This document shows positions 5,135-35,343 of a DNA stretch of 35,343 nt, piece after piece; position 1 is the first letter of the stretch, and each line of letters opens with the position of its first letter. The stretch comes from Balneolia bacterium. Lineage in GTDB: Bacteria; Bacteroidota; Rhodothermia; Balneolales; Cyclonatronaceae. Where the stretch lies: NCBI GenBank assembly GCA_003566635.1, contig PXCK01000197.1, positions 1 to 35,343 of the forward strand, given 5' to 3'. Made by a program: the position numbers and the translations under genes. The notes under the pieces are model-generated. The model was not told where the DNA came from and ran no database searches. It saw only the letters and a list, made by a program, of their open reading frames with translations.

Positions 5135-5910
5135 CAGTCGTTTTCTTTAATAATGTTTAAAATGGTTTCTTTCCAATCGGGGTGGCACGAAAAGCCGTTT
5201 CCACCATCAATACGGGCATTGCCTTGCAAATCAGTAAATGATCCGCCGGCTTCAGTAATTACAGGCAATAACGCTGCTGCGTCCCAAATATTTAGAACCG
5301 GGTCGAGCATAATATCGGCTCTGCCGGTGGCAACCATTAAATGACCGTATGCGTCTCCATAGGTTCTGTAGGTTTTTACCCTATTCATTAAGGCATGAAA
5401 GGAGTTTTTATAACCGAATTCATCAAAATATTTCACATCGGAAGTCATCATACTGGCACTTTCCAATTTATCGAGTGGTCGAACAGAAGTGCGTTCACCA
5501 TTGAAAAAGCATCCACCACCCTTCCAGGCATATACCATTTCATCCATGAATGGTGCATAAATCACTCCAATAACAGGTTCATCATCAATTGTGATGCCAA
5601 TTAGGGTAGTGTAAAGCGGAATACCGTGAACAAAACCAATAGTACCATCAATAGGGTCTAAAATCCATTTAACTGATGCATCCTTTTTTTCGGTTCCATA
5701 CTCCTCACCTATAATCCCATGTTCAGGAAATTTTTGATTGATAAGTCCTCTCATTGTTTGTTCCGCCTGCCTGTCTGCGACCGTTACAGGAGAGTCGTCT
5801 TCTTTTCTAATGACATCAAACTTTTTGCGAAAATAGGTTAATGTTTCAGCCCCTCCGGCTTTGGCAACATCAACCGCAAATCTTGTAAGTTCTTCAAGTG
5901 ATATATTCAT
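5134..5910 (-). CDS. Inositol monophosphatase family protein, possible histidinol-phosphatase
   Basis: 258 residues, the usual length for this family of Mg2+-dependent, Li+-sensitive phosphatases. Metal-binding signatures are present: GEE at 68-70, D85-P-I-D88-G-T and W209-D210 with EAGG at 220-223. The GIIGEEYG and NIWDAAALLP surroundings resemble the HisN branch that dephosphorylates histidinol phosphate, but inositol-phosphate or 3'-phosphoadenosine-phosphate hydrolysis cannot be excluded. No other histidine gene lies in the window. It is the first gene of a two-gene unit; its TGA shares one base with the ATG of the M1-like gene. The partner is exported while this protein is cytoplasmic, so a shared function is not obvious. 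Confidence 0.82.
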   Translation of the reverse strand: MNISLEELTRFAVDVAKAGGAETLTYFRKKFDVIRKEDDSPVTVADRQAEQTMRGLINQKFPEHGIIGEEYGTEKKDASVKWILDPIDGTIGFVHGIPLYTTLIGITIDDEPVIGVIYAPFMDEMVYAWKGGGCFFNGERTSVRPLDKLESASMMTSDVKYFDEFGYKNSFHALMNRVKTYRTYGDAYGHLMVATGRADIMLDPVLNIWDAAALLPVITEAGGSFTDLQGNARIDGGNGFSCHPDWKETILNIIKEND

Positions 5911-15156: not shown

Positions 15157-15510
15157 CTAATCCTCGAGGTCTAAAATTATTTTGATATTTTCTTTAACTC
15201 GCTCTATTAATACTTCTGGTATATCACCAATTTTCTTAAGTAACCGTTTATTATCTATAGCTCTTAGTTGGTCAATCATTACATCAGAGTCTTGGTTAAC
15301 TTTTGCTACTCCTTTTTTTAAATGAACCCTCAAGATCCGACTCTCATGCTTAACGTTGGTAGTAATAGGACAAATTAAGGTTGAAGGGTGGACTTTGTTA
15401 AGAAAATCTGATTGTACAACTAAGACAGGCCTTGTTTTACCTGCTTCAGTTCCATAAGATGGATTAAGGTCGGCAAGCCAAACTTCGTACTTTTTAGCTT
15501 TCATATTCAT
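15157..15510 (-). CDS. MazF/PemK-family endoribonuclease toxin
   Basis: 117 residues, the typical size. The MazF/PemK fold is shown by YEVWLADLNPSYGTEAGK (8-25), R27 in TRPVLVVQ, CPITT (47-51) and VMIDQLRAID (77-86). These positions include the conserved arginine and threonine/serine used for RNA cleavage. Family members cut mRNA at short motifs and are held inactive by the antitoxin. The gene overlaps the upstream antitoxin gene by 17 bp, the usual tight coupling. The toxin appears intact. Its sequence specificity cannot be read from the sequence. Confidence 0.9.
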   Translation of the reverse strand: MNMKAKKYEVWLADLNPSYGTEAGKTRPVLVVQSDFLNKVHPSTLICPITTNVKHESRILRVHLKKGVAKVNQDSDVMIDQLRAIDNKRLLKKIGDIPEVLIERVKENIKIILDLED

Positions 15511-24879: not shown

Positions 24880-25149
24880 GATATTTGTTATTTGATTAGA
24901 AATAAATTGAAATAAAAAAACTCTTGTTAATTGAGCTTTTAACACTACTGCCAGTTAACAATCATAATATCATAACTTTATTAGATTATTAATGTAGGCT
25001 TTAGTCTGTTTGATTTGTAGGGGCATTTTGACAGACTTTGTAGGGGTTTTCCTTACATGAAATACGAATGGTTGTATATGATAAAAACCTAAGTAGTCTA
25101 AATAAATCAAGCTGTTATAAAACCTTCTAACTCGCAAAAACTTAGCTAC

Positions 25150-25218
25150 CATCCCCCGAATTGGCTACGCCAATTCGTACCCTCCCGGTAAACCGGGGTA
25201 GGCACTTCAAAGGGGGAT
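25150..25218 (-). repeat. Composite palindromic repeat, copy 1 (long form)
   Basis: Outer ATCCCCC/GGGGGAT ends enclose the hairpin GAATTGGC-TAC-GCCAATTC (25158-25176) and a second hairpin CTCCCGGTAAACCGGGG. The flank on the right (25219-25248) shares the TAATTATTATT-type leader with other copies read on the minus strand. Orientation is given by that leader and by the GGGGGATGGT trailer. Confidence 0.8.
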
Positions 25219-25309
25219 ATTCTTACATTCAATAATAATAATTACATACGAGTATTTCTTGGATGTTTTTTTAAAACTCAAAAGCTTGAACTATTTCATA
25301 GACATTAAA

Positions 25310-25360
25310 ATCCCCCTTTGTAAGGGGGAAGAGAGCGGCGCAGCCGCTCGAGGGGGATGG
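25310..25360 (+). repeat. Composite palindromic repeat, copy 2 (short form)
   Basis: ATCCCCCTTTGTAAGGGGG, then GAGCGGC-GCA-GCCGCTC (a perfect 7-bp stem), then GAGGGGGAT. The CCCCC run can pair with either G-run, giving two alternative folds. The trailer GGCACGGAAGGTTG leads straight to the 3' end of the DUF559 gene. Confidence 0.85.
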
Positions 25361-25393
25361 CACGGAAGGTTGTTTCTGGGAAAGTGACTGAAT

Positions 25394-25774
25394 TCACTTG
25401 GAAAGTTTTAAGACCCAACTTTCGATCTCACTTTCAACATTGTCAATGTCATTAAGTACTTCCTCATCAGAAAACCTTATAACAGTATAACCTGCTTGCT
25501 CTAATTGGTCTTGTCGATCTAAATCTTTTTGGTAGACTTTGTCAAACCCATGTGTATACCCATCTACTTCAATGATAAGCATTAGCTCTTTGCACATAAA
25601 ATCAGCTATATAATTTAATACCGGACGCTGCCTTAAAAACTGGTATCCATGCATTCTTCTGGCTCTTAGCACTTCCGACCATAGCTTGACCTCTGCTAAT
25701 GTTGCGTTATTCCGCAATTCTTTAGCATATGATTTTAGGTCTTTGTTGTAGTGGCTATTCTTCTTTGGTTTCAT
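25394..25774 (-). CDS. DUF559 endonuclease-domain protein (Vsr-like fold)
   Basis: 126 residues, a complete single-domain member of DUF559, which belongs with the very-short-patch-repair-like restriction-endonuclease fold. Likely active-site residues: E28 in NATLAEVKLW, D58 in NYIADFM, E69 and D71 in IIEVDGYTH with H75. The block GYQFLRQRPVLNYIADF is typical. It stands alone, with no methyltransferase or helicase, and sits between two inverted copies of the composite palindromic repeat (25310-25360 and 25848-25896) whose trailers face the gene. A second repeat pair 250 bp away encloses a decayed copy of its 3' end. The arrangement suggests the nuclease travels with, or acts on, the repeat. 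No function is proven for solitary DUF559 proteins that I know of. Confidence 0.88.
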   Translation of the reverse strand: MKPKKNSHYNKDLKSYAKELRNNATLAEVKLWSEVLRARRMHGYQFLRQRPVLNYIADFMCKELMLIIEVDGYTHGFDKVYQKDLDRQDQLEQAGYTVIRFSDEEVLNDIDNVESEIESWVLKLSK

Positions 25775-25847
25775 CGGGTAATGTATTAGTTGGTTTCGGG
25801 TAATTTATAGCAATTTTTAGACTTAATTGACCTTAAAACCTTTGACC

Positions 25848-25896
25848 ATCCCCCTGGATTGGCTGCGCCAATCCTTTCCCCCTTACAAGGGGGGAT
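25848..25896 (-). repeat. Composite palindromic repeat, copy 3 (short form)
   Basis: The same element in inverse orientation: ATCCCCC, hairpin GGATTGG-CTGCG-CCAATCC, then CCCCCTTACAAGGGGGG and AT. The central stem sequence differs from copy 2 but pairs equally well, which is compensatory change. Its trailer (25820-25847 read on the minus strand) points to the DUF559 start. Confidence 0.85.
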
Positions 25897-25985
25897 GCTT
25901 TTATGTTATAAAATAATATATACTTATGTGACTTATAGTAACTTTTTTTTAAAACCAGAACCCTTAATTAATTATGCACCTATAA

Positions 25986-26034
25986 ATCCCCCTTTGTAAG
26001 GAAGCGGAGAGCGGCGCAGCCGATCGAGGGGGAT
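25986..26034 (+). repeat. Composite palindromic repeat, copy 4 (decayed short form)
   Basis: Same design as copy 2, but the first G-run is damaged (TAAGGAAGCGG) and the central stem has a mismatch (GCCGATC instead of GCCGCTC). Its trailer GGCACGGACGGTTG leads into the DUF559 remnant, exactly as copy 2 leads into the intact gene. Confidence 0.82.
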
Positions 26035-26069
26035 GGCACGGACGGTTGATTTTGGCAGAATGAATGAAT

Positions 26070-26160
26070 TCAATTGGAAAGTTTCACTACTAAACTTTCA
26101 ATTTTACGCTCTGTGTTATCTATATAGGTCAGTACTTCTTCGTCTAAAAACACTAGTAGT
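26070..26160 (-). pseudogene. Remnant of a second DUF559 gene (3' end only)
   Basis: Translated on the minus strand, 26146-26070 gives FLDEEVLTYIDNTERKIES followed by LVVKLSN and stop. The intact neighbour ends FSDEEVLNDIDNVESEIES, WVLKLSK, stop. Upstream, similarity continues for a few codons with a small deletion and then is lost (a stop at about 26170). The remnant sits between repeat copies 4 and 5 in the same relation as the intact gene to copies 2 and 3. So a whole repeat-gene-repeat unit was once present here and most of the gene has been deleted. Confidence 0.8.
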
Positions 26161-26223
26161 CCTTTATACTAAATGTGTTTTTGGAAATTTAACGACTTAT
26201 GAAGCCTCAAAACCTCTAGCACC

Positions 26224-26292
26224 ATCCCCCAAATCAGCTCCGCTGATTTCTCCCTCCCGGTAAACCGGGACTTCGCTCTTCAAAAGGGGATG
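26224..26292 (-). repeat. Composite palindromic repeat, copy 5 (long form)
   Basis: ATCCCCC, hairpin AAATCAGC-TCC-GCTGATTT (26231-26249), then CTCCCGGTAAACCGGG and a closing GGGGAT. It has the same extra CCCGG hairpin as copy 1. Trailer on the minus strand: GGGGGATGGTGCTAGAGG, then TTTTGAGG. Confidence 0.82.
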
Positions 26293-26338
26293 TGTTTACG
26301 TTAATAAATAATAATTACTTATAAATACAAAAATGACC

Positions 26339-26376
26339 TTATTGTAGTTGCAATTCATGAATTGCAACTACAATAA
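26339..26376. repeat. 38-bp perfect palindrome
   Basis: TTATTGTAGTTGCAATTCA (26339-26357) is followed by its exact reverse complement (26358-26376) with no spacer. It ends 25 bp after the response-regulator stop codon (read on the minus strand), where it could act as a transcription stop. GTAGnnGCAATTCATGAATTGC-type palindromes recur in many bacterial genomes, to my recollection, so it may belong to a repeat family. Confidence 0.75.
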
Positions 26377-34687: not shown

Positions 34688-34718
34688 CACTTCGTGGAAA
34701 GCGCATTACCACGAAGTG
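34688..34718 (+). terminator. Hairpin after queG
   Basis: CACTTCGTGG (34688-34697) and CCACGAAGTG (34709-34718) form a perfect 10-bp stem with an 11-nt loop, 15 bp after the queG stop. No T-run follows, so it may instead be the edge of the neighbouring repeat array, whose second copy also ends in ACGAAGTG. Confidence 0.4.
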
Positions 34719-34792
34719 CCCCGAACGAAGCGATTCCCGCGAAACGACACCTATGAATAGTCGTAAGTCATTATAATTTAATAACGTACAAA

Positions 34793-34841
34793 ATCCCCCT
34801 TTGTAAGGGGGCAGAGAGTGGCGCAGCCGCTCGAGGGGGAT
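34793..34841 (+). repeat. Composite palindromic repeat, copy 6
   Basis: ATCCCCCTTTGTAAGGGGG, CAGAGAGTGGCGCAGCC, GCTCGAGGGGGAT, with leader TTATAATTTAATAACGTAC on the left and trailer GGTACTGAAGGTTTTGAGG on the right. No DUF559 gene or remnant follows it. Confidence 0.85.
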
Positions 34842-34977
34842 GGTACTGAAGGTTTTGAGGTTTGGGAAATGGTTATATTGATATGACGTTGCTGCAGGCT
34901 TATGTGCCCCGCATTAAAATACGGGGTTATGATATCCGGTATGCCTACGGCGTTTAGGTTTTGGTGGTAGTTATTCT

Positions 34978-35007
34978 GCTAGCCATGGGTTTAAACCCAT
35001 GGCTAGC
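34978..35007. repeat. 30-bp perfect palindrome
   Basis: GCTAGCCATGGGTTT is followed immediately by its exact reverse complement. It lies between the two duplicated units and ends one base before unit 2 begins. Palindromes with AGCCATGGGTT text are scattered in other genomes as I recall, so it may be another repeat family. Confidence 0.8.
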
Positions 35008-35038
35008 TGTAAGTTATTATTATTTATCAACGTACAAA

Positions 35039-35087
35039 ATCCCCCTTTGTAAGGGGGCAGAGAGTGGCGCAGCCGCTCGAGGGGGAT
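35039..35087 (+). repeat. Composite palindromic repeat, copy 7
   Basis: Identical in its 49-bp core to copy 6, with one changed base in the nearby trailer (GGTACTGGAGG). Leader TTATTATTATTTATCAACG on the left. The identity shows that the duplication is recent. Confidence 0.85.
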
Positions 35088-35343
35088 GGTACTGGAGGTT
35101 TTGAGGTTTGGGAAATGGTTGTATTGATATGAGTTTGTTGTAGGTTTATGTACCCCGCATTGATCCGAGCGAAGCGATTCCCGTGAAACGCCCCGAGCGT
35201 AGCGATTCCCACGAAGTGCCCCGAGCGAAGCGATTCCCGTGAAACGAAATAAGGGGTTATGATATCGGCCATGCCTACGGCATTTGGGTTTTGTATTAAA
35301 AAGCGATAGGTAGCCATCATAAATAAACCAACAAACAACAAAG

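Follow-up and report, generated by a model that had tools for sequence, protein, structure and literature searches.

A short gene for a DUF559 protein lies between two inverted copies of a palindromic repeat in the window (the whole 35,343-nt stretch of Balneolia DNA analysed here), and a remnant of the same gene lies between two further copies. This arrangement raises the question of whether gene and repeats form a unit that moves, and whether the nuclease has a part in the movement. An earlier note, made from the window's letters without database searches, had suggested a REP/RAYT-like system with DUF559 as the enzyme. Our analysis supports this suggestion and adds elements that were absent from the note: the BoxC (triplex-type) identity of the repeats, the reach of the pairing across phyla, the probable REPIN-like doublets and the insertions in frame into coding genes.

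A DUF559 gene between inverted repeats

The window contains seven copies of the repeat, on both strands, with a hairpin core of 49-77 bp (Table 1). The core word ACCATCCCCC is matched 10 times with at most one mismatch, against 1.2 matches expected, a count that none of 100 shuffles attained. Both repeats that bracket the intact-looking gene point their GGGGGATGG arms at it. The note's description of this bracketing, with trailers facing inward, of a second pair around a remnant of the same gene and of seven copies in all was borne out, with its plus and minus labels swapped; its repeat length of about 115 bp was not, because the copies have 175-370 bp in common (at 87-98% identity) and the repeated segment is thus longer.

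Table 1. Positions of the unit, its decayed neighbour and the repeat copies in the window
Feature	Position	Strand	Remarks
Unpaired repeat copy left of the unit	25146..25222	+	Core 25148+
Complete repeat-DUF559-repeat unit	25308..25898	-	591 bp
Terminal triplex-type repeat, 3' side of gene	25308..25362	-	Core 25361-; CCCCC hairpin, linker hairpin, GGGGGATGG arm towards gene
DUF559 (PF04480) gene, EDxHD-type nuclease (predicted)	25394..25774	-	126 aa, looks intact; PF04480 match E 1e-32
Terminal triplex-type repeat, 5' side of gene	25844..25898	+	Core 25845+; inverted relative to the 25308..25362 copy
Repeat, one end of decayed neighbouring unit	25983..26038	-	Core 26037-; 77% over 168 nt
DUF559 remnant in decayed unit	26076..26201	-	C-terminal 44 residues; 50% identity over 44 aa, E 2e-5
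Repeat, other end of decayed unit	26220..26294	+	Core 26221+; longer CCCGGTAAACCGGG linker hairpin
Unpaired repeat copy	34792..34845	-	Core 34844-
Unpaired repeat copy	35038..35091	-	Core 35090-; tandem duplicate of the 34792 copy plus flanks, 90% over 167 nt

The source draft genome holds 35 CCATCCCCC sites, against 6 for a reversed control pattern, and 17 of them are full repeats outside the window. A third inverted pair, on contig C61, encloses a short DUF559 remnant (18 aa, E 0.012); only one DUF559 gene in this genome is above threshold.

Three other features of the window were recorded. A short-repeat array, CCCCGAGCGAAGCGATTCCCGTGAAACG, occupies 34705-35247 beside the two solo repeat copies; a perfect 38-nt palindrome, TTATTGTAGTTGCAATTCATGAATTGCAACTACAATAA, lies at 26339-26376 between the decayed unit and a response-regulator gene; and a MazF/PemK-type toxin gene (PF02452, E 3e-28) is found at 15157-15510 on the minus strand.

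The pairing is specific, oriented and crosses phyla

We examined 80 relatives of the window gene from other species with a detector for the C-arm/loop/G-arm/linker/G-arm motif, which in the window picks up true copies only. A repeat lies within 300 bp of the gene at 71 of the 80 loci (89%), against 3.0% of 338 control ORFs, and on both sides at 55% of the loci against none of the controls; of 115 flanking repeats, 110 have the third arm turned towards the gene. By an independent score, the flanks form an inverted repeat scoring at least 30 at 66% of the 80 loci and at 0.4% of 501 control ORFs. The motif also occurs within 350 bp of 30 of 40 stand-alone DUF559 genes sampled across the phylum without regard to their likeness to the window gene. 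By eye, the pairing was recognised in E. coli (ycjD), Neisseria gonorrhoeae, Sinorhizobium, Sphingobium, Azospirillum, Deinococcus, Picosynechococcus and Pseudanabaena, and in Sphingomonas inside a transhydrogenase operon. The association of DUF559 with the repeats is therefore specific, oriented and shared between phyla, and the finding that the note had named as a refutation, DUF559 genes occurring mostly without the repeat, is contradicted by both samples.

The note's second possible refutation, a repeat copy number unrelated to DUF559, was tested only in part. Among 396 genomes of the wider group, at least five copies of one motif form are found in 14, and 13 of these carry DUF559, against 184 of the 396 overall; the clear exception, G162, is rich in repeats and lacks DUF559. 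Motif counts of one to three per genome show no association with DUF559 within the window's class. The phylum-wide C5/G5/G5 pattern represents a single sequence type of the repeat and is a weak test at the level of genomes. E. coli strains without ycjD still retain repeats. We found no report tying DUF559 or ycjD to repeats in the open-access literature that we searched; subscription papers and preprints may differ.

The repeats share the build of BoxC/PIT/TM elements

Each repeat consists of three blocks, in the order C-arm, loop, G-arm, linker, G-arm (Y-loop-R-linker-R'). This is the build of the BoxC/PIT/TM intrastrand-triplex repeats; that the DUF559-flanking repeats themselves form a triplex is an inference, as triplex formation in vitro has been demonstrated for TM_ECO only (PMC4666352). 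In E. coli, CCCTCACCCCAACCCTCTCCC..GGGCGAGGG follows ycjD and CCCTCGCCCC..GGGGAGAGGGTTAGGGTGAGGGG lies on its fabI side. These flanking sequences are the BoxC/PIT/TM_ECO repeat, and ycjD is itself a repeat-DUF559-repeat unit. TM_ECO, which folds into an intrastrand triplex in vitro, is a marker of variable loci (Holder et al., PMC4666352). Repeats of this type are associated with genomic instability, and the same authors state that no transposase or integrase remnants were ever found around TM sites (PMC4666352). Inverted pairs in E. coli always join one type A and one type B copy (PMC4666352); likewise, two end types are combined in several DUF559 units and in the doublets of genome G191 described below.

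Among 159 distinct motifs from the studied loci, third arm and hairpin stem covary in mirror order. When the bases 3' of the third arm are set against the inner stem, A goes with A in 79 of 93 motifs at the first position, C with T in 42 of 44 and T with C in 11 of 12; at the second position, G goes with G in all 74 and A with T in 41 of 52. Mutual information reaches 0.80 at the first position and 0.75 at the second, where shuffles gave at most 0.11 and 0.12, respectively. Watson-Crick pairing of the third arm on its 5' side was considered and dropped, since that side shows no covariation. Mirror covariation is what an antiparallel third strand would require, and neither direct nor Watson-Crick pairing predicts it, a reading that rests on inference from sequence alone. 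The independent changes are fewer than these counts, because the motifs belong to few families.

At nine loci, the two flanks of one gene come from different repeat families, and the mirror rule is nearly always obeyed; the T..A/AG type is always upstream at these loci and the G..C/TG type always downstream. The window copies follow the rule as well (CCCCCTT..AAGGGGG / GGGGATG). They fold well, have a long linker hairpin and may adopt a fold other than a triplex. The foot of their hairpin reads ATCCCCC / GGGGGATG, and in other repeat types TGG and AGG.

Gene-less doublets and the whalefall-1 family

Genome G191 carries 43 repeats of the whalefall-1 type, including 12 inverted doublets spaced 86-92 nt apart. 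The ten doublet sites that we examined have a total length of 142-144 bp with variable middles, and each joins both end types of that genome's 565-bp DUF559 unit. By analogy, these gene-less doublets of constant length are probably REPIN-like derivatives of the unit.

The Rfam family RF01762 (whalefall-1) resembles the DUF559 repeats in its build of two hairpins plus a third arm, and is annotated as a non-coding RNA ('Y' for RNA, whalefall metagenome only; PMC2864571). It matches above its gathering score at four places in two Balneola contigs, with 54-63 bits (L076:4862-4917 and 5387-5442; L081:4843-4898 and 5366-5421). The window repeat at 25844-25898 (+) reaches 26 bits, below the gathering cut-off of 37. 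In at least two genomes, then, the whalefall-1 'RNA' is the DUF559-associated repeat, and the family as a whole is more plausibly a mobile DNA repeat than a non-coding RNA. The best Rfam matches in the window were miRNA models, which we discarded as they model any long inverted repeat.

These matches also bear on the possibility that the repeats are ordinary structured RNAs or terminators whose nearness to DUF559 is incidental. RF01762 matches at gathering score, miRNA-like matches and well-folding hairpins speak for it. Against it, a repeat lies near only 3% of control genes, copies are found within coding sequence and on either strand, with as many as 43 in one genome (the figure for whalefall-1 in the window's order), and all four gathering-level RF01762 matches bracket DUF559 in inverted orientation. 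We regard this explanation as all but ruled out.

Filled and empty sites support mobility of the unit

The note had proposed comparing orthologous loci for presence or absence of whole units, and such differences are seen at hemE-hemF and metH. Of 12 genomes from one genus, four carry the unit at the hemE-hemF joint and six lack it; G251 could not be scored, and G398 has only a peptide and a DNA stretch resembling a decayed repeat. At filled joints, the translated repeat DHPPAPPSKGDS links the DUF559 gene in frame to hemF. DUF559 precedes the coproporphyrinogen oxidase gene hemF in G275:C9 (L163), G151:C34 (L157), G287:C39 (L164) and G349:C2 (L158), and in the first three is read as an in-frame N-terminal extension of hemF. 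On the hemE tree, the filled G275 is sister to the empty G397, and at least three changes are needed in all.

Long DUF559 reading frames proved to be in-frame insertions in metH (L103, L105, L111, L113, L121), leuS (L096, L099, L120), hsdR (L101, L104, L109) and restriction-methylase-like genes. The translated repeats serve as linkers (PPSGAGGAGK, PPAPKGGVK and similar), DUF559 is flanked by host domains, and the in-frame copies show no intein family. In the genus of G325, the insert is present in 8 of 55 metH-bearing genomes; in about 47, the native linker, SKQAGDKQGN or a near variant of it, is in place. The filled G325 is placed among empty relatives (MetH branches of 0.003-0.03), and its metH flanks are 91-93% identical at the DNA level to those of the empty G501 and G453, right up to both joints. 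The insert is best read as a gain, because a deletion that restored the conserved native linker is unlikely. The third arms of the in-frame metH copies face outward, not inward.

Filled alleles of metH and hemF could have spread solely by ordinary homologous recombination between species, without movement of an element. The insertion site is identical in several species, and the DUF559 proteins of the closest filled relatives are only 73-74% identical, so that the events may be old. However, the filled G325 matches its empty relatives up to both joints as two empty relatives match each other, with no visible exchanged tract, and various host genes and many intergenic sites are used. We therefore consider recombination alone unlikely. 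That the repeat-DUF559-repeat unit is mobile is well supported by the filled and empty sites, an inference made without a transposition assay.

No target-site duplications were found at the units, whose outer flanks are complementary instead of directly repeated. At 42 units with both ends (e.g. L067, L080, L052 and L057), they take the form TNT...ANA; the variable N bases of one locus complement each other in 72% of cases against 35% expected, a pattern that is not a target-site duplication.

E. coli was dropped as a model of mobility, as there is no clean unit insertion at the ycjD locus. The gene occupies a single place (sapF-fabI), where other lineages have the eef operon instead (PMC12817139). 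At E. coli ypfG-tkt (L205-L207), we observed a solo BoxC-type repeat that is present or absent between strains with identical flanks, a REP-like fragment standing in its place.

The repeat type follows the resident gene

A tree of 91 DUF559 proteins shows 8 changes of repeat type, where shuffled labels give 23.7. Shuffling within host order gives 16.5 changes, with a minimum of 10 in 300 shuffles. DUF559 phylogeny follows repeat type beyond host order, with the caveat that physical linkage alone would hold a gene and its flanking repeats together. We also scanned 50 genomes for three repeat types (AT, GC and AG), for which reversed control patterns gave 0. Genomes whose DUF559 units have AT-type ends hold 141 AT, 0 GC and 4 AG repeats; those with GC-type ends hold 3, 85 and 21, and those with AG-type ends 16, 4 and 88, respectively. 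The repeat type of the resident unit thus predicts the type scattered across the genome. As at most two counted copies per DUF559 gene are its own ends, it is the scattered copies that match.

The most serious rival is that another enzyme, such as a Y1/RAYT transposase, moves the repeats and that DUF559 is cargo caught between two of them. Y1 enzymes are known to move REP sequences. Proteins of this family (PF01797) occur in 42 of 45 repeat-bearing genomes tested, which is why we take this rival most seriously, with 11 matches in the window's own genome; the repeat-rich G162 without DUF559 fits it too. On the other hand, DUF559 is usually bracketed by repeats, while at the places that we compared no Y1 gene came within 300 bp of one. 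Repeats are also present in three genomes without Y1 proteins (G405, G406 and G434), and cargo would not be one single nuclease family in at least four phyla. We judge this explanation unlikely.

DUF559 is predicted to be a Vsr/homing-type nuclease

Seven residues (E28, D58, E69, D71, H75, D84 and R100) are identical in all 18 relatives compared, which come from several phyla. A structure model of the protein (pLDDT 86) has two solved relatives among its matches, NGO0050 of Neisseria (3hrl, E 2e-7) and the homing nuclease I-Bth0305I (3r3p, E 9e-4), both of which were also found by sequence search. The model has a Vsr-like PD-(D/E)XK fold with the invariant E, D, H and D present, and DUF559 is on this basis predicted to be a Vsr/homing-type (EDxHD) nuclease; there are no cleavage or binding data. 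YcjD was earlier placed in the PD-(D/E)XK superfamily and recognised as Vsr-like (PMC1189080). That the nuclease recognises the repeat, as the note had inferred, remains an inference, as does cutting.

A reading as a defence gene was rejected. PADLOC gave only a weak homing-endonuclease match (E 6e-6) and a methyl-directed restriction endonuclease match at 0.005, and PHROGs only families of unknown function.

DUF559 could also act in repair, as a Vsr-like nuclease that processes the repeat's hairpin or triplex and protects the genome, the linkage being kept by mutual tolerance without transposition. Its likeness in fold and motif to Vsr-type nucleases, the SOS response in cells without a methyltransferase that is described for Caulobacter VsrA, which has a DUF559 domain (PMC12907096), and the instability linked to the repeats (PMC4666352) favour this view. 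However, it leaves unexplained the inverted bracketing, the recent in-frame gains in metH, the gene-less doublets of constant length and the several units per genome, and we find it very unlikely.

A proposed mobile element

We propose that the repeat-DUF559-repeat unit is a small mobile element of about 450-600 bp, RAYT/REPIN-like, whose movement is driven by its EDxHD nuclease. This is the reading we favour as likely, and the role of DUF559 in it is inferred without cleavage, binding or transposition data. Several observations given above weigh against it: the missing target-site duplications, the repeat-rich G162 and the E. coli strains that have repeats but no DUF559 gene or ycjD, the wide occurrence of Y1 proteins, the effect of physical linkage on the tree, the outward third arms in metH and the lack of association at low motif counts. 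The ends of the element would be inverted BoxC-type repeats, capable of forming a hairpin or an intrastrand triplex, and its sole gene would encode the Vsr/homing-type nuclease. The nuclease would recognise the folded repeat, either extruded or single-stranded, and cut at or near the folded ends. Repair or re-joining would then insert at another place either the whole unit or a derivative without the gene, first doublets and then single repeats. Since insertion would also spread gene-less derivatives, the solo repeats would be non-autonomous offspring, like the REPINs of RAYT genes.

A bolder version is possible, and we lean slightly against it: a widespread class of transposable elements with ends that an EDxHD nuclease recognises as intrastrand triplex DNA. 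Such elements would give rise to BoxC-type repeats across bacteria and could insert in frame into essential genes because their ends can be translated as flexible linkers.

BoxC/PIT/TM repeats have been known for decades in E. coli and other bacteria and are tied to genome instability, with enzyme and mechanism lacking; YcjD/DUF559 is now a candidate partner. As ycjD is present in E. coli BL21, the question can be tested at once. If the proposal is true, orphan BoxC repeats gain an enzyme, and the unit is a previously unrecognised mobile element in many phyla, based on a homing-type nuclease instead of a transposase. It would account for the odd DUF559 insertions in MetH, LeuS, HsdR and HemF, would turn one Rfam 'RNA' family into a mobile DNA repeat, and would provide natural evidence for selection on a triplex-type DNA structure.

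Comparison with known systems

The units do not meet the criteria of classical insertion sequences, as they carry no DDE, Y1 or serine transposase, only DUF559, and have no direct target-site duplications. They resemble EDxHD homing endonucleases such as I-Bth0305I in nuclease fold and sequence and in having one site filled or empty in conserved genes. Homing endonucleases of this type are carried by a self-splicing intron or intein, or stand free by their target. In contrast, neither intron nor intein is involved in the DUF559 units, the inserted part is retained in the protein, both ends carry inverted repeats, many sites are used, and copies between genes are enclosed by repeats.

Rickettsia palindromic elements and other in-frame palindromes insert palindromic DNA in frame in coding genes and are not known to carry an enzyme, whereas DUF559 units put a whole nuclease domain between translated repeats. 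BoxC/PIT/TM_ECO repeats are, like the DUF559 repeats, three-block Y-R-R sequences, intergenic, dispersed and variable between strains (PMC4666352). They were described without an enzyme; in the present case the repeat forms the inverted termini of a DUF559 unit.

The REP/REPIN and RAYT system shares with the DUF559 units its dispersed palindromes, a mother gene bracketed by inverted repeats, many solo copies and inverted doublets, and the co-diversification of gene and repeat. It differs in its enzyme, a Y1 HUH protein (PF01797) instead of an EDxHD/PD-(D/E)XK-type nuclease (PF04480), and in the GTAG/CGTC tetranucleotide at the foot of the hairpin, in place of which the DUF559 repeats have a third arm.
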